DNA of 54,617 bases, from assembly GCA_028724525.1 (NCBI GenBank), contig JAQYCV010000023.1, positions 1 through 54,617 on the forward strand, given 5' to 3'. The stretch is from Clostridiales bacterium (GTDB lineage Bacteria; Bacillota; Clostridia; Saccharofermentanales; DTU023). The notes under the pieces are model-generated. The model ran no database searches and had not been told where the DNA came from. It saw only the letters and a program-made list of their open reading frames with translations. Below, in pieces: positions 3,641-5,536 of this stretch (position 1 is its first letter; every line of letters begins with the position of its first letter). The position numbers and the translations under genes were made by a program.

Positions 3641-4360
3641 TTACCCTTTATGGTCTTCTTCCAAGAAATGCGAAGACCGTAGGATAAAGCCCAGACGTCC
3701 TTGGGTTTCGATGAAATCTGGGTCACCAGTCTTCTGCCTGACCTGGCGCAGGTGCACATTAAACGTGTTGGGATCTCCAATGTAGTCCTCGCCCCAAATA
3801 GCATCCAAGCATTCCTGCTTGGACCAAGTGTGATCAGGGTGGAGAACAAAAAAGTGTACGATATCGTATTCCAATGGGGTTAAATTAAGTCTACAGTCAT
3901 GATAGACAACCTCTTTGCTCAATCGATTAAGACACAAGGAGCCCATGTTTATAACATTCGCTGTCTCCTGCATACGACTCAGGATCTTCTCAATCCTGGT
4001 CAGGAGCCTTAAGGGGTGAAAGGGTTTAATGAGGTAATCCTCTATCCCCAGATCAAAGCCTTTAAGTTCAGATTGGATATCCGTTCGGGCTGTGATGATA
4101 ATCACAGGAATATCTCGGGTGCGGCAGGCCTGGGTAACTTCAAAGCCAGATTTTCCCGGCAACATGAGATCAATTACTGCTAAATCATAACTGCAAGACT
4201 CTTGTGTCAAAGCCTGCAGGGCTGCCCTGCCATCCTGGTAAAGGTCACAGCTATAGTTAGACAGGATTAAAATACTTTCTAAACCTGAACGAATACCCGG
4301 ATCATCTTCTACCAATAAAATGCGGGCTTGAGAGCCTGGCTTGCTTAAACTCGAGTACAA
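3641..4360 (-). CDS. OmpR/PhoB-family response regulator
   Basis: A 239-residue DNA-binding response regulator. The receiver domain (about 12-125) shows the acidic pair VEDD, the phospho-acceptor Asp64 in VIDLMLPG, Thr90 in IIITAR and Lys112 in IKPF. The C-terminal winged helix (about 140-232) carries LTPLEYDIVHFF, the recognition region NTFNVHLRQVRQK and the wing GRLGFIL, as expected for the family. The start is TTG at 4360, chosen because a strong AGGGAGGGAG lies just upstream. It precedes and probably overlaps the kinase gene, giving a canonical regulator-kinase pair. The signal sensed is not evident. The gene lies directly downstream of the repeat block 4553-5536. Confidence 0.93.
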   Translation of the reverse strand: MYSSLSKPGSQARILLVEDDPGIRSGLESILILSNYSCDLYQDGRAALQALTQESCSYDLAVIDLMLPGKSGFEVTQACRTRDIPVIIITARTDIQSELKGFDLGIEDYLIKPFHPLRLLTRIEKILSRMQETANVINMGSLCLNRLSKEVVYHDCRLNLTPLEYDIVHFFVLHPDHTWSKQECLDAIWGEDYIGDPNTFNVHLRQVRQKTGDPDFIETQGRLGFILRSSHFLEEDHKG

Positions 4361-4414: not shown

Positions 4415-4552
4415 TGTGTAAGGAGTGGTAAGTTTAAGAAGTCCTTATGATAGCAAACTGCGCAAGAGTTAATTTCCAAAGTAAACAGGACACTCCGTAT
4501 AGACAGCTAAAGCAAAAACAGTATTTCTTTGCTGGGGGGCAGGAGAAGTTCT

Positions 4553-4993
4553 TGTGAAAAGCGAAGAAGTCAGCTTTCACAAATTATTCTATCTTCAGCT
4601 TGTCAACCAATTACCTGTGGAAGTCACGCATGCCATCCGTCACAGGCTACCCTGCCCTTAGTTTTCAGCCAATTAACTGTGGAAATCGCGGAAGTCATTT
4701 TTCACAGGCCTTCCGCCCTTACTTATTTGGCCAAAATTCATGTGAAATAAATCATTCTAGCATTCCACCGTAAATTTGGCTTATCCAGCCATGCCAGAAT
4801 TCTTGTGAAACAAATCAATATGCTATTTCACCACATTTTTTCTTAATCTGGTCTGGGCCAAATTATTGTGAATCAAGCTATTATCACATTTCCCCGTAAT
4901 TATGGGGTTTTTGCCCCCGCCCGAAGGCCTGTGAAATGAGCAAATGAAATAATCCACCAAATTTGCGATTCTATGGGCCGGCTTGACCAGGCC
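4553..4993. repeat. Degenerate 63-bp tandem repeat array (about 7 units)
   Basis: The core TGTGAAA or TGTGGAA recurs at 4553, 4616, 4678, 4741, 4804, 4867 and 4930, giving spacings of 63, 62, 63, 63, 63 and 63; a related GGCCTGAAA follows 64 bp later at about 4990. Similarity runs across the whole unit: each core is usually preceded by CCAAATT-like bases, and a TTTCACA-like element lies about 22-30 nt after it in units 1-3 and 5. Several units can therefore fold, for example TTGTGAAA/TTTCACAA in unit 1, CCTGTG/CACAGG in unit 2 and CTGTGGAAA/TTTTCACAG in unit 3. Units are clearly diverged, so this is an old tandem duplication. No gene lies within it. Confidence 0.85.
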
Positions 4994-4995
4994 TG

Positions 4996-5184
4996 AAAAA
5001 GGTTGGCAAAGTGCGGATTTGGTGGATTTGCCAACCAAAATCTACCGCCAAACCAGCCCAGCCGGCCCGAAAAAGGTTGGCAAAGTGCGGATTCGGCGGA
5101 CTTGCCAACCTAAATTTACTGCTAAGCCGGAGCGGCAGGGCCGAAAAAGGTTGGCAAAGTGCGGATTTGGTGGATTTGCCAACC
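4996..5184. repeat. Three 74-bp tandem units, each with a 10-bp stem hairpin and T-tract on the minus strand
   Basis: GGTTGGCAAA...TTTGCCAACC hairpins occupy 5001-5036, 5075-5110 and 5149-5184, exactly 74 bp apart. Copies 1 and 3 have perfect 10-bp stems and the same 16-nt interior; copy 2 has changes in the interior and the last stem pair. Each is preceded by GAAAAA, so on the minus strand each hairpin is followed by TTTTTC, the layout of an intrinsic terminator. The 38-nt spacers between hairpins are less conserved (about two thirds identical by eye). A 12-bp inverted copy of the interior (AATCCACCAAAT) lies at 4951-4962. The period of 74 is not a multiple of three, which argues against coding. 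Confidence 0.9.
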
Positions 5185-5276
5185 AATGCCGTCTAGCAAA
5201 AGCAGCTTAAGAAAAAAATAAAGGAAGGCAATTACAAATTTACACACTATTGGGGACTTGACTTCAACTTTCCGGA

Positions 5277-5464
5277 TTTTCTTACAAGTTTGCAGATAAT
5301 ATACATCTCGTTCCACTTTTTCCTCTTTGAAATGTATAAAAGTCGCAGACAAAGTGTATATTTGTATAAATTAAGCCCTTTTAGGCCTATTTTGAGGGGA
5401 AAAAACGGGCTAACCGGACTTTCATAGAATTTCGGCGTACAAAAGCTGCAAACTTGTAAGAAAA
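5277..5464. repeat. 188-bp element bounded by a perfect 19-bp inverted repeat
   Basis: TTTTCTTACAAGTTTGCAG (5277-5295) and its exact reverse complement (5446-5464) bound a 150-nt AT-rich interior without a plausible gene. Outside the perfect 19 bp the arms continue with imperfect similarity (TCAACTTTCC on the left against the complement of GGAAGTTGGA on the right). The structure could be a miniature inverted-repeat element or a long RNA hairpin. I see no clear flanking target-site duplication and no transposase. Confidence 0.75.
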
Positions 5465-5536
5465 ATGAGGAAGTTGGATGTACTGAGTGAGAGAGTGGGA
5501 TGAGCTAGTAAAAGAATGAGGAAGTTGGATGTACTG
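5464..5536. repeat. 22-bp direct repeat (two copies, 51 bp apart)
   Basis: AATGAGGAAGTTGGATGTACTG occurs at 5464-5485 and 5515-5536 with no mismatch. The first copy abuts the right arm of the inverted-repeat element, so the second copy may mark a duplicated element end or a remnant of a second copy. Confidence 0.8.

Follow-up and report, generated by a model that had tools for sequence, protein, structure and literature searches.

The window analysed here is a 54,617-nt stretch of the genome of a Clostridiales bacterium (contig JAQYCV010000023.1, hereafter C23), which carries an array of seven degenerate 62-63-bp units, here called family A, with pheT and a response regulator gene (3641-4360) as its neighbours. 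The block that holds the array, originally described as 1.2 kb of gene-free DNA, also contains a separate array with a 74-bp period (4990-5186) and a MITE-like inverted-repeat element (5265-5476), which belong to two other repeat families, B and C (Table 1). The seven TGTG cores named in the original prediction are found in the letters at the positions given for them (the dyad starts in Table 1), and they follow one another at steps of 63, 62, 63, 63, 63 and 63 bp. The palindrome claimed for the units is also present, with the correction that the conserved part is a 29-bp dyad, TGTGRAA-N15-TTYCACA, whose 15-bp spacer is fixed.

Table 1. Repeat features of the window and family-A loci in the remainder of the genome.
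Feature	Position	Strand	Basis or remark
Family-A array, seven 62-63-bp units	4545..4989	+	lag self-identity, unit search, dyad spacing
Dyad 1, TGTGAAA-N15-TTTCACA	4553..4581	.	exact genome pattern match
Dyad 2, TGTGGAA-N15-CGTCACA, two mismatches	4616..4644	.	spacing 63
Dyad 3, TGTGGAA-N15-TTTCACA	4678..4706	.	spacing 62; exact genome pattern match
Dyad 4, TGTGAAA-N15-TTCCACC	4741..4769	.	spacing 63
Dyad 5, TGTGAAA-N15-TTTCACC	4804..4832	.	spacing 63
Dyad 6, TGTGAAT-N15-TTTCCCC, decayed	4867..4895	.	spacing 63
Dyad 7, TGTGAAA-N15-ATCCACC, decayed	4930..4958	.	spacing 63
Family-B element: three dyads GGTTGGCAA-N18-TTGCCAACC at 74 bp, then conserved right end finishing in TTACACACTATTGGGGACTTGA	4990..5262	+	separate repeat family, not A
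Family-C MITE-like element: 40-bp terminal inverted repeats, 78% complementary	5265..5476	.	many genome copies; not part of A
Family-A array, window	C23:4553-4958		
Family-A array C10a	C10:42.2-42.6 kb		
Family-A array C10b	C10:53.1-53.4 kb		
Family-A array C3	C3:10.9-11.1 kb		
Family-A array C47	C47:23.5-23.9 kb		
Family-A array C33a	C33:1.3-1.8 kb		
Family-A array C33b	C33:41.4-41.8 kb (L151)		
Family-A array C33c	C33:122.5-123.0 kb (L153)		
Family-A array C17	C17:14.3-14.9 kb		
Family-A solitary dyad	C16:15143-15171		

The spacing of the units has been kept despite the drift of their sequence, as originally proposed. Shifted by 63 bp, 4553-4993 has a self-identity of 0.47, whereas the best lag (20-119) in dinucleotide-preserving shuffles has a 95% null of 0.34 and a maximum, over 300 of them, of 0.35; the periodicity of the array is therefore not a product of chance. 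The same lag of 63 comes out best at four further loci of the genome, of which C10 barely exceeds its null. A check by tandem-repeat finder (TRF) detects just the best two units (4599-4724, period 62), because the remaining units have drifted.

Searching the bacterium's own genome, a single draft of 1.76 Mb in 47 contigs that is 94% (93.9%) complete, by BLAST of the window region and then with a model built from 28 units, we find about 60 family-A dyads on seven contigs, grouped into nine arrays except for one solitary site, and all 10 of these loci are intergenic. Five of the arrays (window, C10b, C3, C47 and C33a) are paralogous, with their units in the same order, and were copied from one another; the C10b and C3 copies also have the right flank in common. 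By eye, we saw no ends common to all nine arrays. Within arrays the units align best in a single orientation, and the units of an array probably go back to duplication.

What has been conserved in these copies is the sites. Between equivalent units of the five paralogous arrays the half-sites are 87.5% identical, the loops 66.5% and the linkers 59.4%, and within arrays off-site identity falls to 0.37 versus 0.78 in the half-sites, with length nonetheless kept. Information in the profile of 55 dyads peaks symmetrically at -16 to -8, 0 and +8 to +16, with an almost purely A/T dyad centre and a weaker flanking A(-20)/T(+20), giving an extended site of about 41 bp, A-N3-C-Y-TGTGRAA-N15-TTYCACA-R-G-N3-T. 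The DnaA box is TTATNCACA, and we set it aside since positions 2 and 3 differ in the profile and A9 is often C. The probable origin of the units of one array by duplication would also suit a neutral relic of an old tandem duplication in which the spacing persists by chance, but spacing held at an off-site identity of 0.37 in several array lineages, together with half-sites conserved above background, makes such a relic barely credible.

The internal geometry of the dyad is equally strict. With any spacer from 5 to 34 bp allowed, the own genome gives 22 exact matches, of which 21 have N15 and a single one N16, whereas each of the 37 remaining genomes of the family has 0-3 exact matches, with scattered spacers. 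Dyad-to-dyad steps number 50 in total; 44 of them measure 61-64 bp, five 52 bp and one 50 bp, and none falls at 53-60 bp. The best-fit period of the dyad spacings is 10.45 bp, by which 52 and 63 bp are five and six turns, respectively, and the single 50-bp step is off helical phase. The 52-bp steps occur in three arrays (C10a, C33b and C33c) with no clear homology or detectable shared sequence among their linkers; steps inside an array are not independent, being in part duplicates of each other, and the 52-bp steps represent about three events only, as C33b and C33c carry a 115-bp higher-order repeat (63+52). Helical phase judged from the values 63 and 52 alone is not significant (P about 0.12), and length kept without sequence is the stronger argument. 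Half-sites lie two turns apart and dyads five or six, so that all sites would fall on one face of the DNA. Such an alignment of protein sites at whole-turn spacing was part of the original prediction, and the step lengths, the 10.45-bp fit, the fixed N15, the site profile and the drift elsewhere all argue for it.

Inverted arms may also be read as a row of RNA hairpins, the other possibility raised at the outset, be it a regulatory or stabilising RNA or a series of tandem terminators, and some C17 units do terminate in GGCTTTTT. Single units do keep complementary arms by different sequences, as had been claimed, but across 28 units (alignment with shuffles) and 59 units (per-position tests) there is no excess over independent variation of the columns. 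At the R/Y position, 30 Watson-Crick pairs are observed versus 32.2 expected (37 versus 38.6 with G-T allowed), and over one third of the units are without a Watson-Crick match. No measure of whole-stem pair counts in the 28 units rises above shuffles, and RNAalifold predicts zero pairs on the aligned units. The slight pairing excess that is seen resides in a few near-invariant positions and in the outer T/G-A/C pair of the half-site (z 2.4), and can be explained by the relatedness of the arrays. Either strand does have a somewhat better fold than its shuffles (z about -2.1), though this is expected of any palindrome, and in neither does the fold amount to a row of hairpins; the loops would be 15 nt long. 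Family A has no Rfam match above the gathering score, the terminator search gives chance-level matches only, and the arrays are oriented variously relative to neighbouring genes. We accordingly rejected a structured RNA and regard transcription as a hairpin row as very improbable. With neither covariation nor a hairpin row, the dyads look like two half-sites read independently on duplex DNA, and the independent change of R and Y on the two sides fits such a readout.

A protein that reads these half-sites could in principle be the adjacent response regulator, whose gene lies about 190 bp downstream of the array, or a regulator of the Rex/CRP type, given that the half-site TTGTGAA is identical to that of Rex. 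OmpR-type regulators usually bind direct repeats. The same dyads occur at nine further loci beside unrelated genes, and no relative of the regulator (3641-4360) exceeds 37% identity in the 24 related genomes that were searched, so that with only distant paralogues among 25 genomes there is no orthologous regulator locus to compare. The Rex operator, TTGTGAA-N4-TTCACAA, has the same half-site letters 11 bp apart rather than 22 (PMC6391272), whereas family-A 7-mers are separated by N15 instead of N4, one turn more, in arrays and next to unrelated genes. An operator array of either kind is thus very improbable, and the response regulator, originally suggested for a gel-shift test, is an unlikely binder; since the other arrays adjoin unrelated genes, the adjacency of the two-component system is incidental.

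Indeed, the neighbours of the ten loci have no common theme. Named from reading translations (Pfam was run on the window proteins only), they include, besides those of the window, an L28-like ribosomal protein gene, a surface protein with a glycine dehydrogenase subunit, an ATPase, an Rnf-type subunit, an ABC ATPase and a DinB-like polymerase. A simple ORF caller, applied to nine of the loci, places three between convergent genes and none in a divergent gap, against a background of long gaps that are co-directional in 46 cases, divergent in 18 and convergent in 8; the pattern is suggestive only. The GC skew of the array-bearing contigs is too weak to place the arrays relative to the replication origin.

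The distribution of family A is narrow. The search of other genomes proposed for the unit finds the array in none of the 187 others in the order, two congeners included, and comparison with plasmids, phages and IMG/VR gives no match. The original statement that no described family matches agrees with our search of the families described in Rfam, and the open-access literature yielded no description of such arrays. One genome of another genus of the order (G119) has 10 exact dyad matches, but to a different, near-identical palindrome; this near-perfect palindrome, TGTGAAAAGGGGACGTGTCACTTTTCACA with variants, is dispersed over 10 places and has a REP-like look.

Extragenic position, restriction to a species, multiple copies and a modular build are also the marks of a non-autonomous interspersed repeat (REP/BIME, BOX or MITE-like), mobile or once mobile, in which the dyads would be recognition sites of a transposase. 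The shared unit order of the five arrays copied from one another, the presence of repeat families B, C and D around the arrays and the lack of any locus in a divergent gap speak for such an element. Like REP/BIME sequences, family A is extragenic, palindromic, species-specific, multi-copy and clustered with regular spacing, but it has no GTAG head, no alternating orientation and no excess of compensatory changes (PMC2817692). The Y1 tyrosine transposase (PF01797, RAYT) has no match in the 93.9%-complete genome, with control genomes positive. BOX elements of Streptococcus pneumoniae are likewise intergenic modular repeats, whose tandem middle units vary in number (PMC3049150), but inspection by eye shows no boxA/boxC-like ends shared by the family-A arrays, and it is sites rather than RNA stems that these conserve. 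Nor are shared termini seen among the remaining four arrays, and the half-sites are better conserved than the rest of the copies. On balance we consider an interspersed repeat of this kind unlikely, if still a serious contender.

The reading that we prefer, at a probability of roughly 0.6, is that the array is a cluster of operator-like dyad sites for one putative sequence-specific protein that reads duplex DNA. Each 29-bp dyad would accommodate a symmetric dimer or tetramer with extended contacts over about 41 bp, whose two DNA-binding units, on half-sites with centres 22 bp apart, would be separated by about two helical turns across the A/T-rich centre. With adjacent dyads 52 or 63 bp apart, or five or six whole turns, the bound molecules would be aligned on one face, where they could touch each other or wrap the DNA. 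The sites, their strict geometry inside and between dyads, the drift of the remaining sequence, the dispersal over intergenic arrays and the lack of covariation are observed; the binding of a protein, its symmetry and its cooperativity are inferred.

We do not file family A as a member of the sopC, NikR, REP/BIME, BOX, Rex or RNA families; it is a variant of multi-site arrays. NikR is not known to use phased arrays. The NikR operator, an inverted repeat that ends in GTATGA half-sites and is bound by a tetramer of the ribbon-helix-helix type, resembles the family-A dyad in geometry only, having half-sites about two turns apart, a less-conserved centre and nearly the same footprint (PMC4486848), but the half-sites GTATGA/TCATAC are not those of the family-A profile. 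In the sopC (parS-F) centromere of the F plasmid, SopB/ParB-F binds the 16-bp inverted repeats found in twelve repeats of 43 bp (PMC6238139). The sopC and family-A arrays are both tandem inverted-repeat sites at near-constant spacing for a dimeric protein, which in family A is putative, but the site and period differ, and a single plasmid locus contrasts with about nine degenerate chromosomal arrays.

Because the neighbours are unrelated and none of the loci was found in a divergent gap, a nucleoprotein locus for structuring or segregating the chromosome is favoured over gene-specific control and is the most likely role, albeit one held at clearly less than even odds; the main alternative to that role is a non-autonomous repeat that uses the same sites, which is possible. 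Absence from two congeners is not what is usually seen when a host function is conserved, and it agrees equally well with a system that is selfish or evolves fast. If a protein does line up on the arrays, its rule of site, internal gap and whole-turn step can be searched for in other genomes, and family A would be a dispersed, multi-locus counterpart of plasmid centromere arrays and a case in which geometry outlasts sequence. The results also carry a warning that degenerate palindromic arrays should not be called RNA hairpins without a covariation test. A speculative and rather doubtful extension is that the genus has several orthogonal chromosomal families of phased sites (A at 52/63 bp, B at 73-74 bp, and D at 31/61 bp here and 72/82 bp in a congener), each with its own fast-changing DNA-binding protein, which would organise or segregate the chromosome as an undescribed system.

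The other repeat families have features of their own. Family B has a 36-bp dyad in one to three copies at 73-74 bp, and some copies have a left-end inverted match to the right end TTACACACTATTGGGGACTTGA; it recurs at C1:24676, C16:62759, C33:126492, C14:53843, C22:30383, C5:85302, C19:40872 and other loci. An IS256 transposase considered as its parent was rejected, being a single gene whose flanks (L209) are without B or C ends. Family C is about 217 bp long with terminal inverted repeats of 30-40 bp (CAACTTTCCGGATTTTCTTACAAGTTTGCA) and occupies about a dozen loci besides the window. Family D is a 17-bp site, CAYCCATTANYTGCARA, with 134 matches in the own genome (e.g., L193:9886-10044, L203:2232-2389 and L158:1854-2011) and 78 in the congener G001 (e.g., L181:16401-16878), none in the other congener and, elsewhere in the order, just two stray one-mismatch matches. 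Its spacings are 34 (inverted), 31, 31 and 61 bp in the own genome and 72 and 82-83 bp in G001; that is, one site with differing spacings, again near whole turns. At L181:16401-17070 of the congener, near a contig end, the site forms a head-to-head array with four sites per strand in succession. Finally, AAAAATGAGGAAGTTGGATGTACTG occurs at 5461-5536 of the window as two 25-bp direct copies 51 bp apart, and at C3 (L010:2860-2967) the motif is found in about four tandem copies with a 28-bp period.
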